From Eubacteriaceae bacterium CHKCI004 (GTDB taxonomy: Bacteria > Bacillota > Clostridia > Lachnospirales > Lachnospiraceae), in the NCBI GenBank assembly GCA_900016875.1, contig FCNR01000024.1, positions 1 through 50,862 on the forward strand: DNA of 50,862 nt. Direction: 5' to 3'. Below the pieces are notes generated by a model that saw nothing but the letters and a program-made list of their open reading frames with translations, was not told the DNA's origin and ran no database searches. Both the position numbers and the translations under genes were made by a program. Shown here one piece after another: positions 14,947-40,400 of the stretch (positions within the stretch are counted from its first letter, which is position 1; each line of letters begins with the position of its first letter).

Positions 14947-14969
14947 AAAAATGTTTGTAATAATAAAAA

Positions 14970-15056
14970 CGGGGAGCTTGCGTATCAAGCAGGCTGAGAG
15001 GAGACTGAATCGTCTCGACCCTTTACCTGATTTGGATAATGCCAACGTAGGGATAT
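14970..15056 (+). promoter_or_regulatory. TPP (THI-box) riboswitch
   Basis: All conserved THI-box parts are present in order: CGGGGAGC, GCAGGCTGAGA (about 14989-14999), a short variable hairpin, GACCCTTTACCTGATTTGGA (15017-15036), and TAATGCCAACGTAGGGA (15037-15053). It senses thiamin pyrophosphate and represses the downstream salvage and uptake genes when TPP is plentiful. Confidence 0.97.
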
Positions 15057-15074
15057 ACAGGCACGAAGAATTTC

Positions 15075-24323: not shown

Positions 24324-26036
24324 ATGAATCAGCATCAGAAAATGGAAGTGGTACTGAAGTATATAACCGACCATTTTTATGAAAAGATCACCCTGGAAAA
24401 TGCTGCGAAAAAAACCGGGTACAGTCAGAGCGTGTTCAGCAACGCATTTAGCAGCTACACAGGAATGTCTTTTACAAAGTTTCTGAAGAAATACCGGCTT
24501 CGCCAGGCGGCGCAGGAGATTCACTGTGGTTATGGAACGCTGGAAATCGTGGGAAGAAGGAATGGATTTCAGTCGAAAAAATTCTACGAAGCATTCAGGG
24601 AAGAGTTCGGTATCACGCCGAAAAACTTCAGGGACAGTGACATTATCCCGGATATGCCGCTGGCTCCTGAGATCAACGGACATTCATTTTTCATGGAATA
24701 TAAGAAGCTGCCAGATGTCGTCATAGAGGGATATCCCATGCGCGCTGTAAATGGAGACGAGACAGATCTTCTCGATGAAGTGGCGTACCCCTTCCGGCAT
24801 CCCGGCAGCAGAGCAGATCTCCACTGTAAAGAAAAGCACTGGGGCGTCTGGTGGCATGACAGGGAGAGGGGGAATCATCTCTGTTATGTCTTGGGAATCC
24901 GGGCGGACGAGACGAAAGAGCCGGAAAAAGGCTGCGTCCGGGTAAAGATTACGGGAGGCGATTACGCGGTCTTTTCTGTAGAACGGGGAAGGGACTATTT
25001 TGATATAGCCAATACCTCCCGGGAGATGGCGTGGTACGTTTTCCATGTATGGCAGATGATTAATCACAAACAGACTGATAAGATGGGATTTACCTATGAG
25101 GCATTTGACAGTGAGAGATCCTATCTGTTCGTGCCGCTGCTGAAAGGCTTTGGCGGTATCGAGATTGAGAAGGATATGGGCGGCAATATGATCGAGGAGC
25201 TGGCCCGCTATGTGGATGAACACATTCTGGAGGATATTGATATCGACACGGTCATCTCTCATTTCGGACGCTCCTCCTTCTACTGCAGAGACCGGTTCCA
25301 GTCCTGCTATAAGATTTCCCTGCCGAATTATATCCGGCGGAAGAGGCTGTACGTCCTCTGTCAGAAAATGGAGGACGGGGAGATTACCGGGGAGGATCTG
25401 ATTCAGAACTATGGTTTTCTGTCAGTGGAGCAGTACCGCAGAGAGTTTTATAAAGAGTTCGGGGTGGAGCCGGAACAATACAAATCGGTCACCCTGGAAT
25501 TGATCGATCTGAAAGAATACTATACTTTTAACTTCCGGCGTCTGAAAAAGTCCGAGCGGATGCTGGAGAGCTTCCGGATCGCCGGAAAGATCATCAAATC
25601 CGGGGAAAATAAACAGGAGCTCGACCTGGACGTGCCGGGCATCGCGGAGTTCTGGATGGAAAATGATTTTCCGGGTCTGGGTGGTGGAAAAGCAGCCCTC
25701 TACGAATCGGAAATCATTGCCAGCGGCCGGCAGGATACTTACGAAGAGAAGATTGTATATAATTATGTGCTGGGGCCGGTGGTCACGGGGGAAGAGAACC
25801 TTCCGGAAGATATGCATCCGGTCACGGTTCCCGGCGGAAAATATGCTGTATTTGAGAATACAGAGGCAGATATCGAGGGGGAGAGCCTTGCGGAGAGAAT
25901 CCGTCTGATGATGCGGTGTATCGACCATGTGTGGATTTATGACAATTGGATGCGGACTGATTTTCAGAGCAGAGTTTCTTTCCTGTATTATGAAGATAAC
26001 AGGCTGTATTATTTTGTTCCGATATACGGAAAATAA
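24324..26036 (+). CDS. Double AraC-HTH / double GyrI-like regulator (paralogue A)
   Basis: A 570-residue protein with an unusual duplicated layout: AraC-type HTH (about 1-105, ITLENAAKKTGYSQSVFSNAF and EIVGRRNGFQSKKFYEAFR); GyrI-like effector domain (about 120-275, including HWGVWWHD and ADETKEPEKGCV); a second HTH (about 285-390, FYCRDRFQ, EDLIQNYGFLSVEQYRREFYKEFG); and a second GyrI-like domain (about 400-570). Its closest relative in the window is the minus-strand protein at 46873, with the same order and length. GyrI-like domains bind hydrophobic or cationic small molecules in MDR regulators. A conserved promoter element begins 5 bases after its stop (26041), so the corrinoid locus is a candidate target. 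Confidence 0.85.
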   Translation: MNQHQKMEVVLKYITDHFYEKITLENAAKKTGYSQSVFSNAFSSYTGMSFTKFLKKYRLRQAAQEIHCGYGTLEIVGRRNGFQSKKFYEAFREEFGITPKNFRDSDIIPDMPLAPEINGHSFFMEYKKLPDVVIEGYPMRAVNGDETDLLDEVAYPFRHPGSRADLHCKEKHWGVWWHDRERGNHLCYVLGIRADETKEPEKGCVRVKITGGDYAVFSVERGRDYFDIANTSREMAWYVFHVWQMINHKQTDKMGFTYEAFDSERSYLFVPLLKGFGGIEIEKDMGGNMIEELARYVDEHILEDIDIDTVISHFGRSSFYCRDRFQSCYKISLPNYIRRKRLYVLCQKMEDGEITGEDLIQNYGFLSVEQYRREFYKEFGVEPEQYKSVTLELIDLKEYYTFNFRRLKKSERMLESFRIAGKIIKSGENKQELDLDVPGIAEFWMENDFPGLGGGKAALYESEIIASGRQDTYEEKIVYNYVLGPVVTGEENLPEDMHPVTVPGGKYAVFENTEADIEGESLAERIRLMMRCIDHVWIYDNWMRTDFQSRVSFLYYEDNRLYYFVPIYGK

Positions 26037-26196: not shown

Positions 26197-26261
26197 GGGA
26201 AAAAGTCAGTGGAAACAGGAACCCTTTTTGTGTTGAAATATAGTGGAAACTATATTAAAAT
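26197..26261 (+). promoter_or_regulatory. Promoter P2 with the GGGAAAAAGTCA element (copy 1)
   Basis: TTGAAA (26233-26238), a 17-base spacer and TAAAAT (26256-26261). A conserved block beginning GGGAAAAAGTCA at 26197 and ending TTTTTGTG at the -35 matches the promoter at 36029-36093 at about 31 of 40 positions with no gaps. The spacer holds a palindrome, ATATAGT-GGAA-ACTATAT (26238-26255), absent from the other copy. It drives the first corrinoid unit. Confidence 0.75.
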
Positions 26262-26288
26262 ATTATTTAGGAATTGCGTACACAATGT

Positions 26289-26413
26289 AGGCTCGTTTTC
26301 ATTCTGGATTGTCAACGCAGTTTTCTGCGCGGCCCCACAGTTGCTGCCGGGCCGTGCAGACAAAGGCAGAAAAGATGCAGAATGAGAAACGAGTCTTATT
26401 TTTGTATTTTTTT
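26289..26413 (+). promoter_or_regulatory. Structured leader RNA, copy 1 (unrecognised motif; terminator-like)
   Basis: The leader of the first corrinoid unit folds into a long closing helix (26289-26306 with 26378-26396, about 17 bp and one bulged G), inside which ATTGTCAACGC (26308-26318) is followed by a small GCAG/CTGC hairpin and an 8-bp hairpin (26328-26335 with 26349-26356). The loop of the latter carries GTTG (26340-26343), complementary to CAAC (26313-26316): a possible pseudoknot. A T-rich run (26394-26413) follows the closing helix, so the fold can act as a terminator. A matching structure occurs at 36471-36562. I do not recognise the class. Confidence 0.55.
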
Positions 26414-26556
26414 AATGGAAAAATAAGGAGAAACAACAAAATATTTCCTGAACAACTGAGAAAATATTGTACAAACAAGAAGATTTGTTGGTGAGAAGGC
26501 CGGCAGGATTCCTGAATGGGAGAAGCAAAAGTATAGAAGAAATGAGGCGTGGACGG

Positions 26557-28470
26557 ATGAAACAGTATTTTGAGAGAAACAGACAAAAGAGAAGAGGCCG
26601 GGCAGCGGCATGCTTTTTTATGATATGCCTGCTGCTTTTTAGTATGTCTATCCCCGCTGCGCTGAGTCCTGTAACGGCAAATGTAACGGAGGTCCGGGCG
26701 GCAGAGACGGCGGAGACGCTGAATCCTTCTGTGGATACGGTGTTGAATTCTGTCCGTTCCTATATGCTCAGTGTGGATACGGATCCGGATTATAACAGCA
26801 TCTGGAATGTGATCGGGCTGACCAGAAGCGGACTGTCCGTTCCATCCTCTTACATACAGACATTTTATGAGAATATATACGCCTATCTGGTGGAGAACGA
26901 CTGGGTGCTGACCAGAACGAAATACTCCGATTACTCGAAGCTGATCGTGGGACTGACGGCCATCGGAAAGGATGCACAGAATATCGGCGGTCATAATCTG
27001 CTGGCATATCTCTCTGATTTTACCGATGTGAAACGGCAGGGCTTTAACGGCCCCATCTGGGCGCTCATCGCGCTGAACTCCCATCCGTCCTACACGATTC
27101 CGACCGACGCCAGTGCACAGGAGCAGACCACGGAAGAAGGGCTGATCACTTATCTGCTGAATGGTGAGACCGCCTACGGGGGATGGACCCTGGCGGGAAC
27201 GGAACCGGACGCGGATATCACGGGTATGACCATTCAGGCGCTGTCACCGTATTACGGCGAGCGCGACGACGTGACGGGAGCCATCGACCGGGCCCTTGAC
27301 TGGCTCTCGGAAACGCAGCTGGCCAGCGGCGGATACGGGACCATGGGAGCGGAAACGTCCGAGAGTGCGGCGCAGGTTATCGTGGCGCTCAGTTCGGTGG
27401 GCATTGACTGTGCGAAGGACAGTCGGTTTATCAAGAACGGCAAATGGCCGATGACCGGACTGTTTCAGTATTATCTGCCGGAGGGAGGCTTCATGCATGT
27501 GGCGGCGGGCGCTGCCAACAACGGAGGCGGCGAGGCCGGAACCTTAAACGGCATGGCGACGGAGCAGGGCATGTACGCTACGGCGGCTTATAAACGGCTG
27601 CTGGACGGCAAAACGGCTCTTTATGATATGAGTGATACTACACTGTCGGCAGGTGAAGTGGTGGATGTATCCACGAGCAATACCGGTGGCGTTGATGCTT
27701 CCGGCAGTACCCGGGCCGCTTCCTCCTCCGGAGCCGTTACGGTGAAGGTCTCCAATGTGAAGCTGGATTACAGCCAGATCACTGTGGAAGTGGGGAAGAC
27801 CCGCAAGTTAAAGGCCACAGTGACGCCGGACAGCGCTTCCGATAAGGAAGTCAAATGGTCGTCCTCCAACAAAAAGATTGTTACCGTAAATCAGAATGGA
27901 AAGGTAAAGGGCGTCAAAGAAGGCACTGCCAGGATCAAAGTAAAAGCCAAAGACGGAAGCGGTAAGAAAGCAGTCTGCATTGTCAAGGTGACAGATACTT
28001 CCTCCAATTCCGAATCGTCATCCGCAGGCGGAAGCTCCCGTTCCTCCGGGGCCTCCTCCTCCGGTTCGGCGGGAGCCGGAACAACCGGCAGTACCTCCGG
28101 CGGCAGCGCTGCCACAACGGCTGCCGGAGGAGCATCGACAGCTTCCGCGCAGGCGGCGGGTACCGGACAGAATACCGCGCAGCAGACGGCGGATGGAAGT
28201 ACGGAGAGCGGCGGCTGGTCCTTTGACGGAGCGGCTTACGTGCCGGAAAGCTCCGCTTCTGCGGACTCCGGCGACAACACATCCGGAACGGCGGAAGGCA
28301 ATGGCGCCGACGGCAGTGCGGGGAAAGGAACCATCACCATAGAGATTCCGGTGGAAGTCGCTTATACGTTATCCGGCGCCGCCGGTCTGGGCGCGCTGGA
28401 AGGACTGCTCTGGCTGCTGAAGAAAAAGGGCGTGCTGGGACTGCTGCTGGGGGTTCTGCGCCGGAGATGA
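26557..28470 (+). CDS. Secreted alpha/alpha-toroid (transcobalamin alpha-domain-like) protein with Big_2 domain and C-terminal membrane anchor
   Basis: A 637-residue exported protein. The frame is open from 26467; ATG 26557 (MKQYFERNRQ) or 26542 are both possible, with weak ribosome sites. Parts: long signal peptide (to about 48, ending VRAAET); a helical toroid of the prenyltransferase/terpene-cyclase fold (about 50-345, with YGGWTLAGTEPDADITGMTI, ASGGYG, ESAAQVIVAL and ATEQGMYATAAYKRL, the pattern of intrinsic-factor-like alpha domains); a Big_2 Ig-like domain (about 395-478); a Ser/Gly/Ala linker; and a hydrophobic C-terminus (about 601-637) with basic end. The DUF4430 lipoprotein follows. 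Together they mirror the two domains of animal cobalamin carriers. Corrinoid binding is inferred. Confidence 0.75.
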   Translation: MKQYFERNRQKRRGRAAACFFMICLLLFSMSIPAALSPVTANVTEVRAAETAETLNPSVDTVLNSVRSYMLSVDTDPDYNSIWNVIGLTRSGLSVPSSYIQTFYENIYAYLVENDWVLTRTKYSDYSKLIVGLTAIGKDAQNIGGHNLLAYLSDFTDVKRQGFNGPIWALIALNSHPSYTIPTDASAQEQTTEEGLITYLLNGETAYGGWTLAGTEPDADITGMTIQALSPYYGERDDVTGAIDRALDWLSETQLASGGYGTMGAETSESAAQVIVALSSVGIDCAKDSRFIKNGKWPMTGLFQYYLPEGGFMHVAAGAANNGGGEAGTLNGMATEQGMYATAAYKRLLDGKTALYDMSDTTLSAGEVVDVSTSNTGGVDASGSTRAASSSGAVTVKVSNVKLDYSQITVEVGKTRKLKATVTPDSASDKEVKWSSSNKKIVTVNQNGKVKGVKEGTARIKVKAKDGSGKKAVCIVKVTDTSSNSESSSAGGSSRSSGASSSGSAGAGTTGSTSGGSAATTAAGGASTASAQAAGTGQNTAQQTADGSTESGGWSFDGAAYVPESSASADSGDNTSGTAEGNGADGSAGKGTITIEIPVEVAYTLSGAAGLGALEGLLWLLKKKGVLGLLLGVLRRR

Positions 28471-28598
28471 CGGAAGTGGGGCGAAGGATAGCAGATAAGA
28501 ATACCCGAAACATATACAGTTTGAGATAAATGCAATCGGAAATCATACAATCAAAAACGTTGAGATAAATGAGGATAAGAAACGAGGAGGAAGATAAC

Positions 28599-30038
28599 AT
28601 GCATCTACATATTCCTACTGGAAAGAGATTAAAAATAAAATACCGGCTGGCGGCACTGCTCATGACCGTCTGTCTCGTGCTGCTCACCGCCTGCGGCGGA
28701 AATGGCAGCAGCGCGCCGGAGGGGAGCAGTGGGGGATCTTCTGTGGAGGCTCTCGGCGATGTGAATCCGATCCCGGAAAACGGCATCATCACCAAGGAGC
28801 AGTTTGAGACCGTGGCAGGAGAGAACAGGGAGATTCAGTTCACCGGAGAGAGCGACGGCATCTCCTATGTCTGGACGTTCAACGCCAGTCAGATTCAGAA
28901 TCCGGAAGACCAGAATCTGAAGGTCACATTTACAACGGAAGGGCTTGACGATATCAAGACCGCAGCCAACAACGCCAATGACGCGCTCAAGATGACCATG
29001 GAAGGACAGGGACTCATCTGTGTGCCGACCCTCACGGTAACTCTGCCGGAGAGCTGGCAGTCAGACACGGGGCTTCTCCTTAAGGAGCAGAACGGCAGTC
29101 TGGCTACTATGAGTGATGTGACCATCGACAGCCAGCCGCAGGAGGCGGCGGACGACAATGCGGCCGATGCCGCCAACAGTAACGCCGAAGAAAGCACAGA
29201 CGAGGCCGGTACAACAGCCGCTGCGGATAATAACGCCGCCACGGCGGCCGGCACGGCTCCCGTGGCCGGAACCACAACCCTGACCATGACAGTGACTTCC
29301 CTGGACGGTGACTGTTACATCGTGGGCGGCATCACCGGCGCGCAGAATAAAGGGGCCGACGCGGCCAACAGTGCGTCCGGCGGCAGTACGACAGCCGGCG
29401 GAGAAACAGGAGCGGCGGGAAGTTCCGCATCGGGAAGCGCAGCAGCCAACAGTGCCTCCGGCAGCGGTTCCGGTACGGATGATGCGTCCGGCAATGGTTC
29501 CGTGTCCGGCGATAGTAGCGGCAGCGACGCTTCTGCACAGAATGACATTTCCTCGGGAAATGATTCTTCCGGCAGCGATTCCTCGGGCAGCGGAGACATC
29601 AAGAATGATGATGTGGCCAACGATACGTCCACACTGACCTGTACGATTTCCATCAGCTGCGCCACGATTCTCAATAATATGGATAACCTGACCAAAGGCA
29701 AGGAAGAGTTCGTTCCTTCGGACGGCTGGATTCTCCCGGCGACCACCGTGGAATTCTCCGAGGGCGATTCCGTCCATGACGTGCTGCAGGCTGTCTGCAA
29801 GGCCAACGGTATCCATATGGAATCCACCTACACGCCGATGTATGACTCCGCCTATGTGGAAGGCATCAACCAGCTCTATGAATTTGACTGCGGCGAGCTC
29901 TCCGGATGGATGTACAACGTAAACGGCTGGTTCCCGAATTACGGCTGCAGCAAATATACCGTTTCTGACGGCGATGTTATCAACTGGGTATATACCTGCG
30001 ACCTGGGCAAGGATGTGGGCGACAACTCCATGTACTAA
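28599..30038 (+). CDS. DUF4430 (transcobalamin beta-domain-like) lipoprotein
   Basis: A 479-residue lipoprotein. ATG 28599 has GAGGAGG upstream; an in-frame ATG at 28569 lacks one. A lipobox (VLLTACGG) near residue 25 predicts membrane anchoring by lipidated Cys. After an Ig-like N-terminal region (about 45-180) comes a Ser/Gly/Ala/Asp-rich linker, then a DUF4430 domain (about 350-479): SVHDVLQAVCKANGI, CGELSGWMYNVNGWFPN, YTVSDGDVINWVY. DUF4430 corresponds to the beta domain of intrinsic factor/transcobalamin. Two copies of TTGAGATAAATG lie in the upstream gap. It is followed by ecfT, so it may deliver corrinoid to the ECF transporter. Confidence 0.8.
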   Translation: MHLHIPTGKRLKIKYRLAALLMTVCLVLLTACGGNGSSAPEGSSGGSSVEALGDVNPIPENGIITKEQFETVAGENREIQFTGESDGISYVWTFNASQIQNPEDQNLKVTFTTEGLDDIKTAANNANDALKMTMEGQGLICVPTLTVTLPESWQSDTGLLLKEQNGSLATMSDVTIDSQPQEAADDNAADAANSNAEESTDEAGTTAAADNNAATAAGTAPVAGTTTLTMTVTSLDGDCYIVGGITGAQNKGADAANSASGGSTTAGGETGAAGSSASGSAAANSASGSGSGTDDASGNGSVSGDSSGSDASAQNDISSGNDSSGSDSSGSGDIKNDDVANDTSTLTCTISISCATILNNMDNLTKGKEEFVPSDGWILPATTVEFSEGDSVHDVLQAVCKANGIHMESTYTPMYDSAYVEGINQLYEFDCGELSGWMYNVNGWFPNYGCSKYTVSDGDVINWVYTCDLGKDVGDNSMY

Positions 30039-30098
30039 AAAGGAACGGCCCGGCGGACAGCTGTCGGCACAACGACGTAAGACGATTGGAGACAACAT

Positions 30099-31037
30099 AT
30101 GAAAGACACATTTTCCACCTACCATCCCATACTGAATATGCTGTATTTTGTGGGAACCATCGGGGTGACCGTGTTTGTGACCCACCCGGTTCTGCTGGGC
30201 ATTTCCTTCGTGACGGGAATCGCGTACTCCTTTCTGCTGAAAGGCGTGAAGCACACCCTGCGGTTTAATCTGCTGTTTTCCCTGCCGGCCATGGTCATCG
30301 TGGCATTGATTAATCCCATGTTCAATCATTACGGTGTGACGATCATCGGATACCTGTATAACGGCAATCCGTTCACGCTGGAGAGCTGCGTGTACGGCGT
30401 CATCATGGCACTGATGCTGGCCTGCACCCTCATTTGGTTCTCCTGCTATACGGAAGTCATGACCTCGGATAAGTTTATCTACCTGTTTGGAAGGATTATC
30501 CCGGCGCTGTCGCTGGTCCTGTCCATGTGCCTGCGCTTCGTGCCGAAGTTCATCCGGCAGATGGGGGTCATCTCCGACGGGCAGAAATGTATCGGCAGAA
30601 GCGTGTCAAACGGCAGCGTCATCAAACGCGCCAGACACGGCATCACTATTTTTTCCATCCTTGTGACCTGGGCGCTGGAAAACGCCATCGAGACGGCGGA
30701 TTCCATGAAGTGCCGGGGATACGGTGAGAAGGGAAGAACGGCATTTTCCCTCTACCGGTTTGACAAGAGGGATCAGATTTGCCTGGTGTTCATGGCTGTG
30801 ACCTTCGGCGTGACGTTATACGGAGCGTCGCAGGGCTTCGCCTTCGCGCAGTATAATCCGAAGATCATTATAGAAGGACTCCCGCTTACGCCGGGAAGCG
30901 CCCTGGTATTTTTCTCATACCTGGCATTTTGTCTGATGCCTGTGGCGCTGGAGCTTGTGGACCGGCAGATGTGGAAGCTCAGAAGAAGAGACATAAGAAA
31001 AGAAGTAGCGGGAGGATACCGTTTATGGGAAGTTTAG
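30099..31037 (+). CDS. ecfT: ECF transporter transmembrane (T) component
   Basis: A 312-residue protein with about 6-7 membrane helices. The coupling-helix signature ADSMKCRGYG (about 203-212) is the EcfT Ala-Arg-Gly motif that docks on the ATPases; a first related motif is near CLRFVPKFIRQM. It is followed, with 13 bases of overlap, by the fused ATPase gene, so this is a dedicated (group I-like) ECF module rather than the shared housekeeping one. Substrate specificity comes from the S component downstream. Confidence 0.9.
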   Translation: MKDTFSTYHPILNMLYFVGTIGVTVFVTHPVLLGISFVTGIAYSFLLKGVKHTLRFNLLFSLPAMVIVALINPMFNHYGVTIIGYLYNGNPFTLESCVYGVIMALMLACTLIWFSCYTEVMTSDKFIYLFGRIIPALSLVLSMCLRFVPKFIRQMGVISDGQKCIGRSVSNGSVIKRARHGITIFSILVTWALENAIETADSMKCRGYGEKGRTAFSLYRFDKRDQICLVFMAVTFGVTLYGASQGFAFAQYNPKIIIEGLPLTPGSALVFFSYLAFCLMPVALELVDRQMWKLRRRDIRKEVAGGYRLWEV

Positions 31038-32734
31038 ATACATTTTTACAAATCCGTGAGCTGACCTTCGCCTATCCCGGCGAGGAGAAACGGGCGCTCA
31101 ATCATGTGAATCTCACCGTGGAGGAGGGCGAGTTTCTCGTCTTATGCGGCAGGAGCGGCTGCGGCAAAAGTACGCTGCTCACCCATCTGAAGACTCCGCT
31201 TACGCCCCACGGAAAGAGAAAGGGCGAGGTGCTTTTTAAGGGGACGCCGCTTCAGGAGATGAGCAACCGGGAGCAGAGCAGCAAGATCGGCTATGTACTC
31301 CAGAATCCGGATAATCAGATCGTGACGGATAAGGTCTGGCATGAGCTGGCCTTCGGACTGGAAAGCCTGGGCTGTCCCAATCAGGAGATACGCATCCGGG
31401 TGGCGGAGATGGCAAGCTATTTTGGAATTCAGGACTGGTTCTACAAAAATGTGGCGGATCTGTCCGGCGGACAGAAGCAGCTTTTAAATCTCGCCTCCAT
31501 CATGGCCATGCATCCGGAGCTTTTGGTACTTGACGAGCCCACCTCCCAGCTTGATCCCATCGCTGCCTCAGACTTTCTGGAGACGGTCAAGAAGATCAAC
31601 CGGGATCTGGGAACCACCATCATCATGACGGAACACCGTCTGGAAGAAGTCTTTCCGTCGGCGGACCGGGTCGTTGTGATGGAGGAGGGGACTATCTTTG
31701 CGGAAGGGACTCCCGACCACATCGGGCAGGTGCTGAAAGAAAGCAATCATGAGATGTTCCTTTCCATGCCGGTGCCGATGCAGATCTATGCCAGGGTGGA
31801 TACGAGGCAGGCTCTTGCCTGTCCGATCACCGTCCGCGACGGGCGCAAATGGCTGGATGCTGTCTGCGCGGAGCGGAAGATACCGAAAGCAGCCGGGAGA
31901 CACGACACGGAAAATGTACCGGCGGGCAGCAAAACGCCTCTGCTGGAGTGTAAGGACGTCTGGTTCCGCTATGAAAAAGAACTGCCGGATGTGGTGAAGG
32001 GACTAAATCTTTCCATCAGGGAAGGCGAATTCTACTGTCTTCTGGGAGGAAACGGCACAGGTAAGACCACGACGCTCTCCATGCTTTGCCGTCTCAGAAA
32101 GCCGTACCGGGGGAAGATCCTCCTGAAAGGGAAAGATATCCGCAGGTACAGCGACAAAGAACTGTTCCGGGGAATGCTGGGCGTCCTGCCGCAGAATCCC
32201 CAGTCTCTTTTTGTGAAAAAGACCGTGGAGAAAGAGCTTTTTGAGATGGTCGGCGGCACGAAGGAAAAGAAAAATGAAGAGTATCATCTGTCCATGGATA
32301 AGCGGGAGGCGGTGGACGGCATCGTGGAGGTGACTCATCTGCACGGCCTTCTGCACAGACATCCTTATGACCTTTCCGGCGGCGAACAGCAGCGGCTGGC
32401 CCTGGCAAAGATTCTGCTTCTGCGGCCCAGGATTTTGCTGATGGATGAGCCGACCAAGGGCATGGACAGTTATTTTAAGGAAGAATTCGCGGACATTTTG
32501 AAGCTGCTCAAAGAGCAGGGGGTGACCATTTTTATGATCTCCCACGACATTGAGTTCTGCGCCAGTCACGGAGACCGGTGCGGCCTGTTTTTTGACGGAA
32601 ATATCGCCGCCTCCGGCACTCCGGAAGAGTTCTTTGCCGGCAATAACTTCTACACCACGGCGGCCAACCGCATGGCGAGAACGTATTTTCCGCGAGCGGT
32701 GACCGGAAAGGATGTGATCCGATGTCTCACATGA
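31025..32734 (+). CDS. Fused ECF transporter ATPase (EcfA1-EcfA2 in one chain)
   Basis: A 569-residue double ABC ATPase. ATG 31025 has GGGAGG 8 bases before it and overlaps the ecfT end. First domain: Walker A GRSGCGKST (about 41-49), signature LSGGQ (about 147), Walker B LLVLDEPTS, H-loop MTEHR. Second domain: Walker A GGNGTGKTT (about 341), signature LSGGEQQ (about 449), Walker B ILLMDEPTKG, H-loop ISHD. Most Firmicutes encode the two ATPases separately, so the fusion marks this as a self-contained importer. It overlaps the S-component start by 13 bases. Confidence 0.92.
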   Translation: MGSLDTFLQIRELTFAYPGEEKRALNHVNLTVEEGEFLVLCGRSGCGKSTLLTHLKTPLTPHGKRKGEVLFKGTPLQEMSNREQSSKIGYVLQNPDNQIVTDKVWHELAFGLESLGCPNQEIRIRVAEMASYFGIQDWFYKNVADLSGGQKQLLNLASIMAMHPELLVLDEPTSQLDPIAASDFLETVKKINRDLGTTIIMTEHRLEEVFPSADRVVVMEEGTIFAEGTPDHIGQVLKESNHEMFLSMPVPMQIYARVDTRQALACPITVRDGRKWLDAVCAERKIPKAAGRHDTENVPAGSKTPLLECKDVWFRYEKELPDVVKGLNLSIREGEFYCLLGGNGTGKTTTLSMLCRLRKPYRGKILLKGKDIRRYSDKELFRGMLGVLPQNPQSLFVKKTVEKELFEMVGGTKEKKNEEYHLSMDKREAVDGIVEVTHLHGLLHRHPYDLSGGEQQRLALAKILLLRPRILLMDEPTKGMDSYFKEEFADILKLLKEQGVTIFMISHDIEFCASHGDRCGLFFDGNIAASGTPEEFFAGNNFYTTAANRMARTYFPRAVTGKDVIRCLT

Positions 32735-33747
32735 ATACAGACGCTGCGGCGGACAGAGAAAAAGGAACGAAATTTTTGCGGCGGTTTTATGAATCGGAGA
32801 CGGTGGAATGCGATAATCTGGGAAGAAAGCTGGCGTCCGCCGTGCTGCCGGAGAGTGTTGTCAACCGGAAACGGCGGACGGGCAGACTGGCCGGGATAAA
32901 AGATATGGCGGCGGAGCTTAAGGAAGAAGGCGGCGCGGGCGATCAGGTGCTCTACGACGATATTTTCGAGGTGGATTCGGAGGCGTTCATCACCACGGAG
33001 AAACGCAAACTGTCCAAGAGGACGAAGGTCAGCCTGTTGCTTCTTCTGGTGCTGATTCCCCTTACCATCGCCTTGGGCGTCTATCTGTTCCGGGGAACCA
33101 GTTACGCGCCGCAGAACATTTTGCAGACTATTTTCGGAAGCCGGGTCTACTACTTTATCAGCCTGGTCATCATGATCTACGCCATGATTCCATTTTTCAT
33201 GGTTTTTGAGGGAAGAAAACCCCAGGCCAGAGAGATGATCGTGTTGGCGTCGCTGGCGGCTCTCGCCTGCGCCGGGCGGGCGGCGTTTTTCATGCTGCCA
33301 AGCTTCAAGCCCATCGTGGCCATCGTCATTATCAGCGGCATCGCTTTCGGAGGCGAAGCGGGCTTCCTGGTGGGAGCGGTGACCATGCTGGTCAGCAACT
33401 TTCTGTTCGGACAGGGACCGTGGACGCCGTGGCAGATGTTCGCCATGGGATTCATCGGTTTTCTCACGGGGGTCCTTCACCAGAAAGGCCTGCTGCCGGC
33501 CAGACGGCTGACCCTGTGCATTTACGGCTTCCTTGTGACATTTTTTATCTACGGCGGCATCATGAATCCGGCGGCGCTCTTCATGAGCGTGTACGAATTT
33601 ACATGGAGCGGTCTGCTGGCAATCTACATATCCGGCGTGCCGGTGGATCTGGTGCATGCCACCTCCACATTTATCTTTTTGTGGCTGGGTGCGCGGCCGC
33701 TCCTTGAGAAACTGCAGAGGATTAAGATAAAGTACGGATTACTGTAA
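32722..33747 (+). CDS. ECF transporter substrate-binding (S) component, probably corrinoid-specific
   Basis: A 341-residue protein. Residues 1 to about 100 are hydrophilic and charged, an unusual cytosolic extension. The rest has about six helices with the conserved segment GRAAFFMLPSFKPIVAIVII followed by GEAGFLVGAVTMLVSNFLFG and QGPWTPWQMFAMG. This signature is shared with CbrT-like S components annotated for cobalamin. Position between the ATPase gene and cbiR/cbiZ genes supports corrinoid uptake. Specificity is inferred from context and family resemblance. Confidence 0.8.
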   Translation: MSHMNTDAAADREKGTKFLRRFYESETVECDNLGRKLASAVLPESVVNRKRRTGRLAGIKDMAAELKEEGGAGDQVLYDDIFEVDSEAFITTEKRKLSKRTKVSLLLLLVLIPLTIALGVYLFRGTSYAPQNILQTIFGSRVYYFISLVIMIYAMIPFFMVFEGRKPQAREMIVLASLAALACAGRAAFFMLPSFKPIVAIVIISGIAFGGEAGFLVGAVTMLVSNFLFGQGPWTPWQMFAMGFIGFLTGVLHQKGLLPARRLTLCIYGFLVTFFIYGGIMNPAALFMSVYEFTWSGLLAIYISGVPVDLVHATSTFIFLWLGARPLLEKLQRIKIKYGLL

Positions 33748-33822
33748 GCCGCGAAGCCTGAGGCGCCAGAGCGGAACGGACGGCAGTGCGAAAACCGCGC
33801 GCGGCACGAGAAGGAGGGAAAC

Positions 33823-34833
33823 GTGAAACAGATACCAAAATACCGGTCCATGAATTTTTCCGTGTACTCGGGAATGCTGGACCGTTATAAAGACAGCGAA
33901 GACATTCGGAACGCATATACGAAAGGCGGTCTCAATGGCCTCGAAGTGATCCTGGCCGGAGAACCGGACCAGGGCAAGATCCTGCCGGACATGGTCAACG
34001 GTGTACATTTATATTTCCATATTTTCTGGATGGATTACTGGCTGGGCAATTACGAACGGCTGGACGAGGAATTTGACTCCCGGGAGCAGTGGGTGGAATA
34101 CTACGGAGGCATGGACAGGGAAGCGTACCTGGACTGCCTGCGGCATGATCTGGCCTACGCCGAGTCGGTGGGGGCGAAATATGTGGTCTTTCATGTGTCG
34201 GAGACGACCCTGCGGGAAAGTTATGTTTATCAGTACCGGTACAGCGATGAGGAGGTCATCGACGCCGCCCTGGAGGTCATCAACACCCTCCTTGACGAAA
34301 GAGAATATTCTTTTGATTTTCTCGTGGAAAATCTCTGGTGGAGCGGCCTGAATCTGAAAGACCCCGCTCTCACAAGAAAGATGCTAGAGGGAATCCACAG
34401 CGAGAAAAAAGGTATCATGCTGGATACCGGACATTATATGAACACCAGCAGCGAACTGAAGACCCCGGAGGACGCAGTGGCGTATGTACACGCCATGCTG
34501 GACGCCCATGAGGCGGCAGGGGTTCCCATTACCCGGTGGGTGAAAGGAGTACATCTTCAGATGTCTCTGAGCGGCGATTATGTCAGGAAACAGAAAGAAG
34601 ACTGGAAGAAGCATCCCATGGACTTTCAACAATATTCTTTTTACGAGCTCTTCGGGCTCGCCTATGAACATGCCTGCAAAATTGACCTCCATCAGCCTTT
34701 TATCGGAAAAGGGGTAAAAGAGCTGATGGAGAGAATCAATCCTATATATATTACAGAAGAATTTGATCAGAAAAGCAGAGAAGAATACGAGGCCTTCGTG
34801 GACGCGCAGAGCCGTCTGCTGGGCTATATCTGA
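33823..34833 (+). CDS. CbiR-like TIM-barrel protein (AP_endonuc_2 superfamily), probable cobamide-remodelling hydrolase
   Basis: A 336-residue cytosolic protein starting at GTG 33823 after a strong AAGGAGGG. It has the xylose-isomerase-like TIM barrel with candidate metal ligands in VVFHVSE, VENLWW, LDTGHYM, KGVHLQMS and ITEEFD. CbiR, described in Akkermansia, belongs to this superfamily and hydrolyses the phosphoribosyl bond of cobamides so that the lower ligand can be exchanged. Placement between a corrinoid-type ECF transporter and cbiZ fits that role well. Assignment as CbiR rests on fold plus context; another sugar-phosphate isomerase-like activity is the alternative. Confidence 0.6.
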   Translation: MKQIPKYRSMNFSVYSGMLDRYKDSEDIRNAYTKGGLNGLEVILAGEPDQGKILPDMVNGVHLYFHIFWMDYWLGNYERLDEEFDSREQWVEYYGGMDREAYLDCLRHDLAYAESVGAKYVVFHVSETTLRESYVYQYRYSDEEVIDAALEVINTLLDEREYSFDFLVENLWWSGLNLKDPALTRKMLEGIHSEKKGIMLDTGHYMNTSSELKTPEDAVAYVHAMLDAHEAAGVPITRWVKGVHLQMSLSGDYVRKQKEDWKKHPMDFQQYSFYELFGLAYEHACKIDLHQPFIGKGVKELMERINPIYITEEFDQKSREEYEAFVDAQSRLLGYI

Positions 34834-34894
34834 ATCGGCCTGCACCGTATGCGGACGCAGAAAAGAGCATATGGTGCCAGAGAAAGGAGCACAG

Positions 34895-36004
34895 ATGAAA
34901 CTATGTCAGTTATCCAACGGCGATGAACTGCACCGCTACAAAAAAGCGCTGGTCCTGCAATTTGCCGGGCCGCGCCATGTGCTCGGGACCGGACCCGATA
35001 ACGGCGGCTGCCAGGAGAACCTGACAGCCGTTTTTAACGTGGACATCAATCCGGGCGCGGGTATGGGCTGCGTCATGCGCGGGGATACCTACGAGGAACA
35101 CATGAACATCATCGCGAAAGAAGATCTGGGACTGCGACCGGAGAAATGTACCGGCCTGTGCACGGCGGCCAGCATGGAAAATGTATCCATACAGACGAAA
35201 GTCTACGAAGACTTCACCGTCACTGCCATCGTCACCGCCGGCATCGAACACAACGGCGGCCGCGCCGGCGACCAGGCCCTCTGGCATGAGCACGGCGATA
35301 CATTCGATCCCGCCGGGCCGGGAACCATCAACATCCTGCTGCACATTGACGCGAATCTGACCCCGGGCGCCATGGCCCGCAGTCTGGTCACCTGCACGGA
35401 AGCCAAGGCTGCCGCCATCCAGGAACTCCAGGCGCCCAGCCATTCCTCCAACGGTATCGCCACCGGCTCCGGCACCGACGGAGTCATCGTCGTCAGCAAC
35501 CCGCAGTCGCCAACCCGCCTGACCAACGCAGGCAAAAATACCAAACTGGGTGAATACATCGGCGTCACCGTGAAAGCCGCCGTCAAAGAAGCCCTCGCCC
35601 GCCAGTCCGGCCTCACCCCGGCCCATCAGCACAATGTTCTGCACCGCCTGGGCCGCTTCGGCGTCACAGAGGACGCCCTCTGGGAGCTCTGCCGGGACAA
35701 ATCCCCTACCCGGGCGGAATTCACCCGCCGTCTGGAAATCCTCGCCGCCGACAGCAGGCTGGTGACCTGGGCGGCTCTCTACGCCCACCTTCTTGACGAA
35801 ACGGAATGGGGACTGCTGAGTGGCGGGGAAGCCTGCGTGGCGGCAAAGGAGCTGCTGGCGCTGTCCGGCCTGCCGGAACAGGAAAGCGATGCATCCAACG
35901 CGCGCGGCAGAGCCGGGAAAGCCTCTGAGACGACCGTCAACATCCTCAGCCGCCGGTATCTCGATGCATTTGCCCGTAAAATCATCTGCACAGCGGACGA
36001 ATAG
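34895..36004 (+). CDS. cbiZ: Adenosylcobinamide amidohydrolase with C-terminal extension
   Basis: A 369-residue enzyme. ATG 34895 has AAAGGAG 8 bases upstream; the frame is open from 34763. Residues 1 to about 225 match CbiZ, which cleaves adenosylcobinamide to adenosylcobyric acid and thereby salvages or remodels corrinoids: HVLGTGPDNGGCQENLTAVF, VTAGIEHNGGRAGDQALW, INILLHIDANLTPGAMAR, and SNGIATGSGTDGV. The remaining 145 residues are mostly helical (LLDETEWGLLSGGEACVA) and not obviously part of the catalytic domain. Codon use is distinctly C-ending and GC-rich here compared with the AT-rich genes after 36701. Last gene of the first unit. Confidence 0.88.
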   Translation: MKLCQLSNGDELHRYKKALVLQFAGPRHVLGTGPDNGGCQENLTAVFNVDINPGAGMGCVMRGDTYEEHMNIIAKEDLGLRPEKCTGLCTAASMENVSIQTKVYEDFTVTAIVTAGIEHNGGRAGDQALWHEHGDTFDPAGPGTINILLHIDANLTPGAMARSLVTCTEAKAAAIQELQAPSHSSNGIATGSGTDGVIVVSNPQSPTRLTNAGKNTKLGEYIGVTVKAAVKEALARQSGLTPAHQHNVLHRLGRFGVTEDALWELCRDKSPTRAEFTRRLEILAADSRLVTWAALYAHLLDETEWGLLSGGEACVAAKELLALSGLPEQESDASNARGRAGKASETTVNILSRRYLDAFARKIICTADE

Positions 36005-36028
36005 ATAAAAAAATAATTTACAAAAATT

Positions 36029-36093
36029 GGGAAAAAGTCAAGAGAAAAGGTAACTACTTTTGTGTTGATTTTATGAATGCAGTGAGCTACAAT
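36029..36093 (+). promoter_or_regulatory. Promoter with the GGGAAAAAGTCA element (copy 2)
   Basis: TTGATT (36065-36070), a 17-base spacer and TACAAT (36088-36093). The upstream block starts GGGAAAAAGTCA at 36029, exactly 36 bases before the -35, as in copy 1 (26197 to 26233). It drives the riboswitch-controlled second corrinoid unit. Confidence 0.75.
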
Positions 36094-36112
36094 ATAAGCA
36101 GTGGTAAACATT

Positions 36113-36330
36113 GGATACGCTCCGTCAGGTCAGAACAACTCCCCTCCTGAGGAGCATTCCGATGACGATTGCAAAGATAGCATTGCAAAGAAAAAGGAAT
36201 CCGGTGAGAATCCGGAGCAGGCTTACCCCTACTGTGAGGCAGACGAGGGCGGCAGGGATGCGTTCCATCCCGGTCACTGGAAGAGATTCCGGGAAGACGC
36301 CGTCCCAAGGAAGAAGCCGAGCCAGGATAC
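36113..36330 (+). promoter_or_regulatory. Adenosylcobalamin riboswitch
   Basis: The core elements are present in order: AAAGGAAT then CCGGTGAGAATCCGG (36201-36215) and AGCAGGC, ACTGTGAGGC (36231-36240), GGTCACTGGAAGA (about 36271-36283), CGGGAAGACG, and the B12 box GAGCCAGGATAC (36319-36330). It begins about 15 bases after the predicted transcription start. It should respond to adenosylcobalamin or a related cobamide and control at least the gene at 36701. Confidence 0.95.
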
Positions 36331-36427
36331 TTTTAACATTTCTTCGGAAGTTTTGGGAAGAGACTGACGACTATACTCCCCACCCTTCGCAGAGCTCTTC
36401 TGTCGAAATTTCCCTGAAATGTTAAAA
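36331..36427 (+). promoter_or_regulatory. Long inverted repeat after the cobalamin riboswitch
   Basis: TTTTAACATTTC (36331-36342) is perfectly complementary to GAAATGTTAAAA (36416-36427), enclosing smaller pairable segments (GGAAGAG with CTCTTC). No T-run follows, so it is not a plain terminator. It is probably the expression platform or a spacer helix between the riboswitch and the second RNA motif. Confidence 0.6.
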
Positions 36428-36470
36428 TAACACAAAAACTTACGTTTACTTTTCAAGCTCAACACCTTGT

Positions 36471-36562
36471 TTCATTTCATCTTGAATTGTCGACGCGTTC
36501 TGTATTCTCTCCGGCAAAGTTGAGCCGGAGGGAGTGACAGGTAAAAAAACGAAGGAAATGAG
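36471..36562 (+). promoter_or_regulatory. Structured leader RNA, copy 2 (same unrecognised motif as 26289-26396)
   Basis: The closing helix is 36471-36478 with 36555-36562, plus CTT/AAG pairs at 36481-36483/36552-36554. Inside: ATTGTCGACGC (36486-36496), then an 11-bp hairpin (36505-36515 with 36524-36534) whose loop AAAGTTGA carries GTTG (36519-36522), complementary to CGAC (36491-36494) with one G-U pair. The arrangement and conserved strings match copy 1 while the helix sequences differ. No T-run follows; a GC-rich hairpin (about 36595-36627) and then the ribosome binding site of the 36701 gene lie downstream. Confidence 0.55.
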
Positions 36563-36700: not shown

Positions 36701-37273
36701 ATGAAACGTTTTAGAAAGTTTACAGCTTTATTGATGGCTATGGTCATGGTGCTGGCGATGGGTGTGACATCGTTTGCGGCGGAGAAGACGCAGCCGACCT
36801 TAACAATTGGCGGAGAGGAAGTAAGTTATACCATGCCTTCGACCAATCTTTATCCGGATATTCCAGATAATGCGGAGAATAAGGGTGAGATCACGGCGGC
36901 GGATATCTTGTTAGAGTATGCGGTGGAGAATTATGGACAGTCTGTTGCGGACCAGATGGCAAGCGGACTTCTGGCGTGCGATTATGACCAGAATTATGTG
37001 AATGAGGAGGGAGAAGCCGGACTGTATATCAGTAAATATCTGGGTCAGGATACGGTTAATAACTATACCTTTATCAGCTACGATGAGATAACCGGTCTCT
37101 ATACCTATCAATGGACCGGCGCCTACTGGTCTCTGACGATTGATGGTGAATATGCGTCCAGCTATGCGACAGCTTACAAGGCCAGCGATATCGACAGCAT
37201 TGATTTTACTCATGTGGAAGATAATGTTGGATACACTTTCACAACTCCATACGAGATTCCGGATGCGAACTGA
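36701..37273 (+). CDS. Small secreted DUF4430 (transcobalamin beta-domain-like) protein
   Basis: A 190-residue exported protein: signal peptide (1-26, ending TSFAAE) followed by a single DUF4430-like domain. GEITAADILLEYAVENYGQ matches the helix that pairs with the beta sheet, and YWSLTIDGEYASSYATAYKA with IDFTHVEDN matches the W-x-NG and closing strands of the family. No lipobox or anchor is present, so it is probably free or bound to a partner. AAGGAGGAG precedes the ATG. It is the first gene behind the cobalamin riboswitch and structured RNA, and is separated from the giant gene by a terminator. Confidence 0.75.
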   Translation: MKRFRKFTALLMAMVMVLAMGVTSFAAEKTQPTLTIGGEEVSYTMPSTNLYPDIPDNAENKGEITAADILLEYAVENYGQSVADQMASGLLACDYDQNYVNEEGEAGLYISKYLGQDTVNNYTFISYDEITGLYTYQWTGAYWSLTIDGEYASSYATAYKASDIDSIDFTHVEDNVGYTFTTPYEIPDAN

Positions 37274-37414: not shown

Positions 37415-40400
37415 ATGAAAAAATTTTTTTTGTGTATTACCGGATTGCTGCTGGGGTTGCTGCTGGGAGCGGGGATTCAGGTGGAAGCGGAGGAGAACCG
37501 TTCAACAGAGTTTGAACATCTGGAAATATTTCATTATAGCGGTAATTTTACAGTTTATGATGAAGAGACACATGACAACACGCTGACCCGTGCGTCGTGG
37601 AATCAATGGTCTGATGTGACATTGATGGACGAGAAAGAACATATATACTGCGCCATGCCGCATTTCATAGGCTACCAAGGCACTTATATTATTTTGACAG
37701 GCAAATTAGAATCGGATACTGCGCGTATTGTGTCCGTTTCAGATTCCATTGATGATTTTGATGGGAGCAGCCTGCTCGCCGTGGAGATCGATACTTCCGT
37801 AGGGTATTATCATCTGGAAAAGGAGGGTGAGGTTCAGATTGACACGGAGGGAAGTGTGTTTACCACTTCGCCGGGAAGCCTTTTGACAGAGACGCCAGCC
37901 AAAGTCCTATATGTTACGGTGCAGGATGGAGAGTTGTCAACGGTACATAAAATTTTATTGGATGAGGTGAATCCTGCCTCAAGCAGTATCCAGTACAGAA
38001 GCAGTGAGATTACTCTATATGACGGGACAGAAGGGAAAAGCGAGAAGTTAGAAGGGTTTAGTGAGATATTTAATGAGGAAAAGAATTCCTGTATTTATGG
38101 AGTAAATACAGAGATTTCCACAGAACCAAATGGCAGTTTTGGTACGAGGGATTACGTATCGTCGGTTTCGCTGGGCGATAAAGAAAAATATTCTGTTCCG
38201 GATGGAGTAGAATCCATAAGAATACAGCGGGTGTCGGATGAAGAGATGCCGGAAGGAGGAGATGCTTTCTGCCCGGATATGGAGGTTTACTATACAGATG
38301 GAAAAAATGCGCTCCACAGGGATAGTTATTATTACTACCGGCAGAGGACCTACTGTGTAAAGATGAATGATGGGGAATGGATAGAACTGGATGACGGCGC
38401 TATCAGTCCGGAACTCCCCCTCAAAGAAGGTTGGAATATTCTCACTGTGCAGAGTATGTCCGACGATTGGATGAAGAGTAATGAGAGAATCCGTTCCGCA
38501 TGCTCCGGAAGTGTAGATAAGAAGAGTGCCTTTACAAAAATCTTTTTGATTTATAAAGAATCTTCATCGGAATATACGTTGGCGGCGGAGAGTGAAAATA
38601 CCGGAATTGATTCCATTGAAGTTTATAAAGCATTGGATAATATAACGGATGCGAAGTTTCAGTTCTGTCAGTATGAAGTGTATGAAAAGGATGGCACATC
38701 GGGAGAAAAATGGGTGGATTTATACTCCAGCAGCCCTTGCGTCTGGATGAAGGTGTTCAGAGAGGAACAGTCAAGCACAGTAGACATATCGGATTCTGAA
38801 CGGATTCACGGCGGTTTTTATATGGAGCTGAATCCGGAGACACAGAAAGAGATTTCGATAGTGGTTACAGCGCAAAACGGAGAAAGCAGAACGGAGTTAC
38901 TGCATATTAACTGGATTGAGAGCGATGTACAGCTTCAAAGATTATATCCTTCCCAGGGCGGTTCGTTTACGCAGGATTATGACCGGGAGACCCAATACTA
39001 TTATCTGAAAAAAGATGATTCTGATACAATTACCCTAAATTATCAGGGCTCTCCAAATACCACTCTGGATATTTATGTGGAGAGAAAAAAAGAAGAAAGT
39101 GTTTCCGATGCCGATTTACATTCGATCAACATTGCGTCTTCTGTTCATAATGTCCAGTTTAAAATTACGGCGCCGAACGGCGATACGAATACCTACACAG
39201 TGGCCATAGAGAGAACGGATACGGGTATTGGAAATGAAACCAGAAATCGCGCGAAAAAGATGATAGATAAGATGGTCAGCGGGGGTTATCTTGAAGAGAT
39301 TCGCAATTCACAGCCGGTGGACTCTTATTGGGGAACGTTCCGGGCAGCCAGTCTTGGAGAAGACTATCTGGAGGGAACACTGGCAGGTGATGTAACTTCT
39401 TATAACTATACCCAGGCGACTTCCTATGCAGCTGTTATTCTCCAGCTTGTGATGTCGGGAGAGAATCCATACAATTACCTTGGAGTGAACTACGTAGAGG
39501 CTCTGGCAAATATGGGGCCGGGATATTATGGGCCTTATGCTAATAACATCTGGACTCTTCTTGCGCTGGATGCAGCCGGATATCCGTTGGACAGCATACT
39601 TCTGGATACTGTTCTCAGTCAGGCCTGTGATACAGGTTTTGATCTGGATATGCGGGGTTGGGCTTTTGCTGCACTATCGAACCATCTGAATGAAGAAGGC
39701 GTAAAAGAAAAGCTGGGTATGGCAGTGGAAACAATAAAAGAAGTTCAGCTGGCCGAAGCGACCGAAGTAAATGGTTATGAAGTCACCGGCGCTTTTGAGA
39801 ATTTCTATTATACCAACCGGAATATTAATTCTCATGCCTGCGTGGTATCTGGTTTGACATCCCTTGGGGTGGATGTCGGTACGGAAGAATGGCAGGTGGA
39901 AGGACTGCATGGACTGGTAGACGGTATTTCACTGCTTGAGGAATATCAGCAGGATGATGGAACGTTCCTGCGATCGCCATCGGAAGGTAGAGTCGGCTAT
40001 AATAAGGATGCGGTGATTGCTGTCGGAGACCTGTATAATGGCGCCAATGTATGGCAAAGATATGCGCTGACCAACGACCGATTCAATGAATTACTGGATG
40101 AAGCGGAACGATTATTGGAGTCTGATAACACAGATGAGGAGCTGAAGACGGTTCTGGCCGACGCATATTGCGAGGCGGCACAATACAGGACAGAAGAACA
40201 GGGCGTCAGTGAACATGGCGAGGAGTATTACGCGCTTCAGGAAGCTGTTTACGCCATAAATGGCGAGAAACCGGATGTATTCCAGGGAACAGCGGAAGAA
40301 AGAACGCAGGTGCGCGATATTATTGCTGTGATTGATACTCTTCCGGAGGCTGATTCTGTCGCTTATAAGGACAGGGATGTTATTCTGAAAGCGCAGGAGG

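Follow-up and report, generated by a model that had tools for sequence, protein, structure and literature searches.

Two corrinoid-uptake operons lie in the window, a 50,862-nucleotide (nt) stretch of Eubacteriaceae bacterium CHKCI004 (contig FCNR01000024.1) that was analysed at its full length. The leaders of both operons, unit 1 (26557-36004) and unit 2 (starting at 36701), carry one lineage-specific cis-acting RNA, which is most likely part of a transcription attenuator, a reading held with middling confidence. The element does not belong to any Rfam family, and its status as a riboswitch is unproven. A first-pass annotation, made from the letters of the sequence, had proposed that one structured RNA occurs in the leaders of both units. 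This observation was largely right, and the resemblance of the two leaders is more than chance similarity; the RNA itself stands, whereas its 5' boundary and its fold had to be redrawn.

The motif ATTGTC-R-ACGC, named in that proposal, is present in both leaders (ATTGTCAACGC at 26308, ATTGTCGACGC at 36486) and forms the 3' arm of a covarying hairpin of 50-68 nt. Taken alone, with at most one mismatch, the motif occurs five times in the window against 1.55 expected, which is near chance. The conserved unit begins further upstream than had been assumed, by 19 nt in copy 1 and by 33 nt in copy 2. Besides the window copies, designated W1 and W2, five homologous stretches from the same genus (L018-L022) contain it. 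In the hairpin, a variable basal stem with compensating changes carries a conserved upper stem, which is capped by a CUCA...UCAU loop, and in all seven copies this same hairpin is the minimum-energy structure. Among the basal stems are GGATTGCGT/ACGTAATCC in L021, GGAGCGTT/AATGCTTT in L022 and ATGGCT/AGCCAT in L019; above them follow an AC/GT step (GC/GC in L019) and then either two A-U pairs or two U-U mismatches. The upper stem reads TTTAGG/CCTGAA in L018 and L022 and TTCAAG/CTTGAA in W2. The apical loop varies from 10 to 29 nt, its CUCA and UCAU strands being kept despite the insertion of 12 nt (W2) or 18 nt (L019) between them. Each hairpin contains G-U pairs, one to four in six copies and six in L020, which points to an RNA rather than to a DNA palindrome. 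In a comparison of the isolated hairpin with 200 shuffled sequences, 27 were as stable for L018, 15 for W2 and 0-3 for the other copies.

Covariation among homologues, on which the first-pass annotation had made its proposal depend, was found. In alignment A2 (seven rows, 19 pairs, 127 pair cells), nine of the 19 pairs are changed on both sides, a number reached in one of 500 shuffles, with no more than three in slid controls. Standard pairs fill 85.8% of the pair cells as opposed to 25.9-43.3% with slid partners, and the covariation score is 0.388 versus 0.224 for shuffles, none of 500 being as high. If W2 and L019 are left out, the remaining five copies are 91.3% paired and their covariation score of 0.300 is equalled in one of 500 shuffles. 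The evidence for the hairpin is good in W1, W2, L018, L020, L021 and L022; the membership of L019 rests on position, motif and fold rather than on score. With its covarying helices, the element is taken to be a structured cis-acting RNA.

The copies are linked to genes of corrinoid uptake. The genus sample comprises 24 genomes, 11 of which contain matches to the S component of the unit 1 transporter. Eleven stretches around such matches outside the organism's own genome were fetched, their genes were mapped by tblastn and their leaders were read. The close relatives L020 and L021, and also L022, carry the element ahead of the gene orthologous to the first in unit 1, and a diverged copy occupies this place in L019. 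In L018 the copy follows a cobalamin riboswitch and precedes a gene whose start resembles the unit 2 gene; the gene behind this riboswitch and element (at ~18472 on the minus strand, genome G203) looks interrupted after ~26 codons. There is no credible element at the operon in L023, L024, L026 and L027 or at the second operon copy of L018, and the stretches L025 and L028 come without a leader. With corrinoid genes as the starting point of these searches, the linkage might be circular, a concern answered by two gene-independent searches of the 24 genomes. The degenerate motif with at most two mismatches yields six mismatch-free matches, each of them a known copy. The RNA model yields seven matches of 53.7-70.4 bits in five genomes, which are the same copies from which the model was built, and four others of 19.1-22.1 bits. 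All seven strong copies are situated at corrinoid-uptake loci, as the first-pass proposal required of homologues. The four weak matches, L078 (22.1 bits, flanked by DnaB-like and MerR-like open reading frames as judged by eye), L079 (21.8), L080 (19.6) and L081 (19.1), the first two inspected as sequences and the last two as alignments, were not counted as members, nor was L027:589-639 (19.1 bits with model R1, 22.5 with model R2). Weak scores are also obtained on the opposite strand of the hairpin (L070 1692-1741, 20.9 bits; L071 2677-2726, 12.1 bits; W1, 13.5 bits, all on the minus strand), which a near-palindromic hairpin would be expected to give.

No credible copy was encountered outside the genus. 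In a family sample of 397 genomes from 334 genera, searched with the strict filters used at this size, it occurs in a single genus (matches in G000 and G203), and 392 genomes of the order contain no credible match outside the genus. One order match, L154 (28.8 bits), runs antisense to promoter-like sequence before a 16S gene and was rejected; another, L155 (21.4 bits), was assessed by its alignment and not counted. Homologues of the gene that opens unit 1 gave 29 loci, 28 from beyond the genus and all drawn from a longer list of homologues; none has the element. An exact pattern, strict enough to miss copies such as W2 and L019, retrieved 14 records from a genome contig collection; three correspond to the copies already known from G209, G208 and G211, and the other 11, without a model match at E 1 or better, are attributed to chance. 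The pattern ATTGTCRACGC..GTTG..GACA matched three of 200 family genomes outside the organism's own, and five in a backward control, again chance. As far as searched, the element thus appears to be lineage-specific. Neither leader matches Rfam at gathering score, in line with the first-pass annotation, which had recognised no known class. The Rfam 15 gathering scan of the window reports cobalamin and thiamin pyrophosphate (TPP) riboswitches only, that of nine homologous stretches cobalamin aptamers only, and in the W1, W2 and L020 leaders permissive scanning returned nothing beyond sub-threshold matches to unrelated families. RF00174, with a threshold of at least 31.5 bits, is not matched by either element. 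Nor is the element described in the available portions of the literature on tandem and orphan riboswitches, LoaP and DUF4430 (including PMC9481103, PMC12452182 and PMC12691694).

A role in attenuation is suggested by the computed folding of the leaders. In copy 1 a long closing helix is followed by a T-run, as the first-pass annotation had stated, and this competing terminator (Table 1) is graded probable. In copy 2 the closing helix has only 8 base pairs (bp) and is not followed by a T-run. The leaders fold better than shuffles, with z values of -7.8 (W1), -6.5 (L020), -7.8 (L021), -7.2 (L022), -4.7 (L018) and -1.1 (L019), and the second window leader as originally delimited with -3.9; enforcing the hairpin costs 1.7-10.8 kcal/mol relative to the minimum. 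When prefixes of increasing length are folded, L020 and L021 retain the hairpin up to the point at which the strand preceding the T-run is added. In the six copies other than W2, the pairing of the 5' 32 nt with the last 30 nt ahead of the T-run was compared with 1000 dinucleotide shuffles, of which 0 were as good in L022, 3 in L021, 53 in W1 and 77 in L020. In these folding models, displacement of the hairpin by the terminator is likely in L021 and L022, probable with borderline pairing in W1 and L020, and unproven in L018, L019 and W2. L022 also has a second clear intrinsic-terminator-like hairpin (6292-6316) after the element and before the first gene.

In both window leaders the motif is followed by a strong second hairpin (P3) with AGTTG in its loop, as had been noted. 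P3, with 12-17 bp, is present in six copies, and AGTTG is found in the P3 of W1 and W2 only; in L019 its place is taken by a 13-bp hairpin to which the 3' arm of the conserved hairpin contributes. The pseudoknot of GTTG with CAAC or CGAC that had been postulated on these grounds does not hold, AGTTG being present in two of the seven copies and CAAC overlapping the basal stem of the conserved hairpin. A different candidate pairing joins the apical loop (GCUC...) to a strand 3' of P3 that ends with GAAACGAGUC in W1, UAUGGGUC in L020 and L021, AUAUUGGGUG in L018 and GAAAUGAGC in W2. This strand is located directly before the T-run in W1, L020 and L021 and ~40 nt before it in L018; W2 has no T-run. 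In 2000 shuffles of the downstream 50 nt, the p values, which are not corrected for several tests, were 0.013 (W1), 0.086 (L020), 0.0045 (L021), 0.042 (L018) and 0.0555 (W2). Pairing of the apical loop with a downstream strand in five of the seven copies is suggestive. The 8-bp pairing that had been taken for the closing helix of copy 2 involves the apical loop; in the model it is compatible with the hairpin stem and would then be a pseudoknot between the loop and downstream sequence.

According to the model that we favour, the 50-68 nt hairpin would form as soon as it is transcribed, and P3 would form second, downstream of it. The strand that then emerges would pair with the apical loop and extend into the 5' arm of the hairpin, so that a long hairpin ending at the T-run results. 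An intact hairpin would correspond to the antiterminated state, with the operon on, and a hairpin invaded via its loop to the terminated state, with the operon off. Some factor would stabilise or destabilise the hairpin. Three copies share a transcript with a cobalamin riboswitch upstream, which could provide an input to the hairpin; the four stand-alone copies would need a different input, namely a protein, a small molecule or the speed of transcription or translation. A protein or another trans-acting factor seems more likely as the trigger than a metabolite.

Several results weigh against this model. The loop-strand test fails in L022 (p 0.91) and L019 (p 0.50), and the best partner of a loop is not in every case its own strand. 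In the prefix folds, the hairpin of W1, L018 and L022 disappears ~13-31 nt ahead of the T-run, after transient losses at shorter lengths, at the stage where inner portions of the long fold become possible; L019 loses most of it early, and the hairpin of W2, in which no T-run follows the closing helix, survives most prefixes to the end. The pre-T-run pairing is no better than in shuffles in L018 (784 of 1000 as good) and L019 (408 of 1000). These failures in several copies mean that one common switching mechanism is not supported for all seven. The comparative evidence also has soft spots: the five-copy alignment contains four doubly changed pairs, a number that 96 of 500 shuffles reach; the five-copy model gives the held-out W2 a score of 25.1 bits (E 0.0019), near an unrelated stretch at 22.5 bits, and the held-out L019 one of 13.4 bits (E 1.9), no better than the wrong strand of W1 (13.5 bits). 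Finally, no trigger was identified, LoaP being the sole binding protein sought.

Protein-controlled antiterminator leaders of Firmicutes include the RAT hairpins of BglG/LicT, the GlpP leader and the dual hairpins of ANTAR proteins. The element shares with them a conserved hairpin that overlaps a terminator. It differs from them in its longer stem, its large loop and the lack of a RAT consensus or ANTAR hexaloops, as judged by eye. The LoaP leader of the Bacillus velezensis dfn and mln operons likewise places a hairpin ahead of a terminator that controls whether a long operon is read through; this hairpin is small and of the UNCG type in the account available to us (PMC12691694), in contrast to the 10-29 nt loop with CUCA...UCAU found here. 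A LoaP leader was rejected: NF033641 exceeds its cut-off in none of 12 genomes, 11 of which have a sub-threshold NusG-like match.

The nearest alternative takes the element for the expression platform of the cobalamin riboswitch, the stand-alone copies being leftovers after loss of the aptamer. A cobalamin aptamer (RF00174), absent from the first-pass account, ends upstream of copy 2, which starts 86 nt behind the aptamer match. With this canonical riboswitch in place, corrinoid sensing at unit 2 already has a known sensor. In the genus, RF00174 has 31 matches in 19 of the 24 genomes. Thirty of these loci were searched with the model, and the element follows on the same strand in three of them (W2, L018 and L022), starting 86-92 nt after the aptamer; the 31st locus lies in L019, ~5 kb upstream of the L019 copy. 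The three linked copies have a T-tract in the 5' arm (GCGTTTACTTTTT, GCGTTCACTTTTT or ACGTTTACTTTTC), a U-tract in the RNA, where W1, L020 and L021 have the pairing bases ACAATG instead, and the 5' arm of L022 overlaps with a terminator-like hairpin whose tail is weak, none being reported at this place in W2 and L018. This spacing and these tracts speak for a platform. However, an element that accompanies three of 30 riboswitch loci is not the usual platform, and four of the seven copies keep the fold without an adjacent riboswitch, whereas leftovers should lose it. The element and the riboswitch serve the same kind of operon, yet the element lies outside the aptamer. We regard a platform as possible but rather unlikely.

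Less probable, and doubtful in our view, is a new class of riboswitch whose aptamer would sense a corrinoid precursor, for example cobinamide, either alone or as part of a stacked two-input gate. This idea draws on the lack of an Rfam match, on the association with CbiZ, an S component of an energy-coupling factor (ECF) transporter and DUF4430 proteins, on the retention of the CUCA and UCAU strands across the insertions, and on the position in tandem with a cobalamin aptamer. As a corrinoid pocket, a single irregular hairpin would be small, and the conservation of the loop may reflect pairing with the downstream strand. The restriction to one of 334 genera also counts somewhat against a metabolite riboswitch class, since a wide distribution is usual for metabolite aptamers, though not strictly required. 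Two-input tandem riboswitches with adenosylcobalamin aptamers are known, and these likewise have a second RNA element behind an aptamer of this class on one leader; unlike them, as far as the source available to us extends (PMC9481103), the second element here has no known ligand. In a related and equally doubtful version, the element would be a genus-restricted RNA sensor of a corrinoid precursor or scavenging signal, used alone or in series, with loop-initiated strand invasion by the terminator. If true, one cell would have a one-input and a two-input version of the sensor on two salvage operons.

A role at the level of DNA is very unlikely. The 45-bp conserved arm might be an operator for the neighbouring tandem AraC/GyrI-type regulator, whose genes, encoding two helix-turn-helix (HTH) and two GyrI-like halves, are located directly upstream of unit 1, of the L020, L021 and L022 operons and of the L018 copy. 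Compensatory changes and G-U pairs extend across the whole hairpin, however, L024 and L027 have the araC neighbour without a credible element, and the element lies downstream of the promoter match, by ~345 nt in W2. In unit 1 this match, obtained like that of unit 2 by a consensus scan only, ends 8 nt ahead of the hairpin, and the transcript would begin at the foot of the hairpin. TTGACA occurs by eye in the reverse complement of W1, L020, L021, L018 and L022 (TCGACA in W2, TGGCAA in L019); an antisense promoter was rejected, as scans of both window leaders gave no minus-strand promoter match there. A constitutive 5' stabiliser or mRNA-processing hairpin that does not switch would suit a transcript start at or near the hairpin foot in W1 and L019 (the L019 promoter by eye), a competing terminator that is weak or absent in L018, L019 and W2, and the persistence of the W2 hairpin, but it is highly improbable given the conserved loop that pairs with the strand before the T-run in W1, L020 and L021 and the three copies that lie behind a riboswitch and not at the 5' end.

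Table 1 Features of the two leaders and their operons, in window coordinates
Feature	Position	Strand	Remarks
Sigma-70-like promoter, unit 1	26233..26261	+	TTGAAA, 17 nt, TAAAAT; 10/12 consensus
Copy 1 hairpin (W1)	26270..26325	+	67.3 bits
Copy 1 basal stem	26272-26279 / 26315-26322	+	AATTGCGT/ACGCAGTT
Copy 1 upper stem and apical loop	within 26270..26325	+	ACAATGTAGG/TCTGGATTGT, one G-G mismatch; loop CTCGTTTTCAT
Competing terminator fold, copy 1 (predicted)	26289..26413	+	T-run 26397-26413
Copy 1 terminator pairs (predicted)	26289-26299 / 26386-26396	+	AGGCTCGTTTT with GAAACGAGTCT
Copy 1 terminator pairs (predicted)	26296-26306 / 26378-26388	+	TTTTCATTCTG with CAGAATGAGAA
Second hairpin P3, copy 1	26324..26360	+	12-bp stem, AGTTG in loop
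Big_2-domain protein, first gene of unit 1	26557..28470	+	N-terminus resembles signal peptide by eye
DUF4430 protein	28569..30038	+	
ECF-type transporter, unit 1	30099..33747	+	T subunit, duplicated ATPase, S component
Putative T subunit	30099-31037	+	assigned by position; without informative family match
Duplicated ATPase of ECF-type transporter	30929-32734	+	
S component of ECF-type transporter	32722-33747	+	matches PDB chain 6fnp_A, E 8.3e-9
TIM-barrel protein	33823..34833	+	AP_endonuc_2
CbiZ, adenosylcobinamide amidohydrolase	34763..36004	+	PF01955, E 1.5e-57
Sigma-70-like promoter, unit 2	36065..36093	+	TTGATT, 17 nt, TACAAT; 9/12 consensus
Cobalamin riboswitch aptamer	36156..36352	+	RF00174, 70.4 bits
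12-pair helix closing domain at riboswitch 3' end	36331-36342 / 36416-36427	+	single-sequence folding; ends 10 nt before copy 2
Copy 2 hairpin (W2)	36438..36500	+	56.9 bits; 25.1 bits when held out
Copy 2 pairs	36438..36500	+	CGTT/GACG, AC/GT, UU.UU, TTCAAG/CTTGAA; 12-nt loop insertion after CTCA
8-bp pairing, copy 2 (predicted)	36471..36562	+	TTCATTTC (apical loop, 36471-36478) with GAAATGAG (36555-36562)
Second hairpin P3, copy 2	36503..36536	+	13 bp, AGTTG in loop
190-aa protein, first gene of unit 2	36701..37273	+	DUF4430 below family cut-off, E 0.00082

For the S component of unit 1 (Table 1), 6fnp_A, which we take to be the cobalamin ECF transporter CbrT, is the sole solved relative found; a comparison of the S component with viral contigs revealed no relative. 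The N-terminal domain of the first gene product has homologues in 66 of the 397 family genomes (59 of the 334 genera). Homologues of this domain (residues ~44-382) are often found inside very long open reading frames, and faint structure matches to squalene-hopene cyclase were obtained (E 0.048 and 0.088). Together with DUF4430, the domain presumably recalls the two domains of animal transcobalamin and intrinsic factor. DUF4430 occurs in proteins of the transcobalamin/intrinsic factor type, according to the part of the source available (PMC4350170). The first protein of unit 1 is a possible candidate for a surface corrinoid binder. In unit 2, the region 37415-42847 encodes a protein of 1810 residues with Big_2 domains, followed by LRR/GLUG and DUF4430/fn3 proteins. 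The AraC-type regulators at 24324-26036 and 46873-48594 (-) contain internal duplications, the 570-residue chain being composed of two HTH and two GyrI-like/Cass2 halves, and relatives adjoin corrinoid operons elsewhere in the genus. At 14960-15070 the TPP riboswitch lies ahead of a thiamin salvage cluster encoding hydroxyethylthiazole kinase, ThiE, a HAD hydrolase, ThiD and a permease of the cytosine/purine type.

Bacteria compete for corrinoids, and the genes of corrinoid uptake are widely controlled by cobalamin riboswitches. A second RNA element at corrinoid operons, used with and without a riboswitch, would add a layer of control, and the occurrence of both natural arrangements in close relatives makes this layer testable. 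Even as an ordinary attenuator, the element would offer a clean case of one leader module that is used alone and behind a riboswitch.

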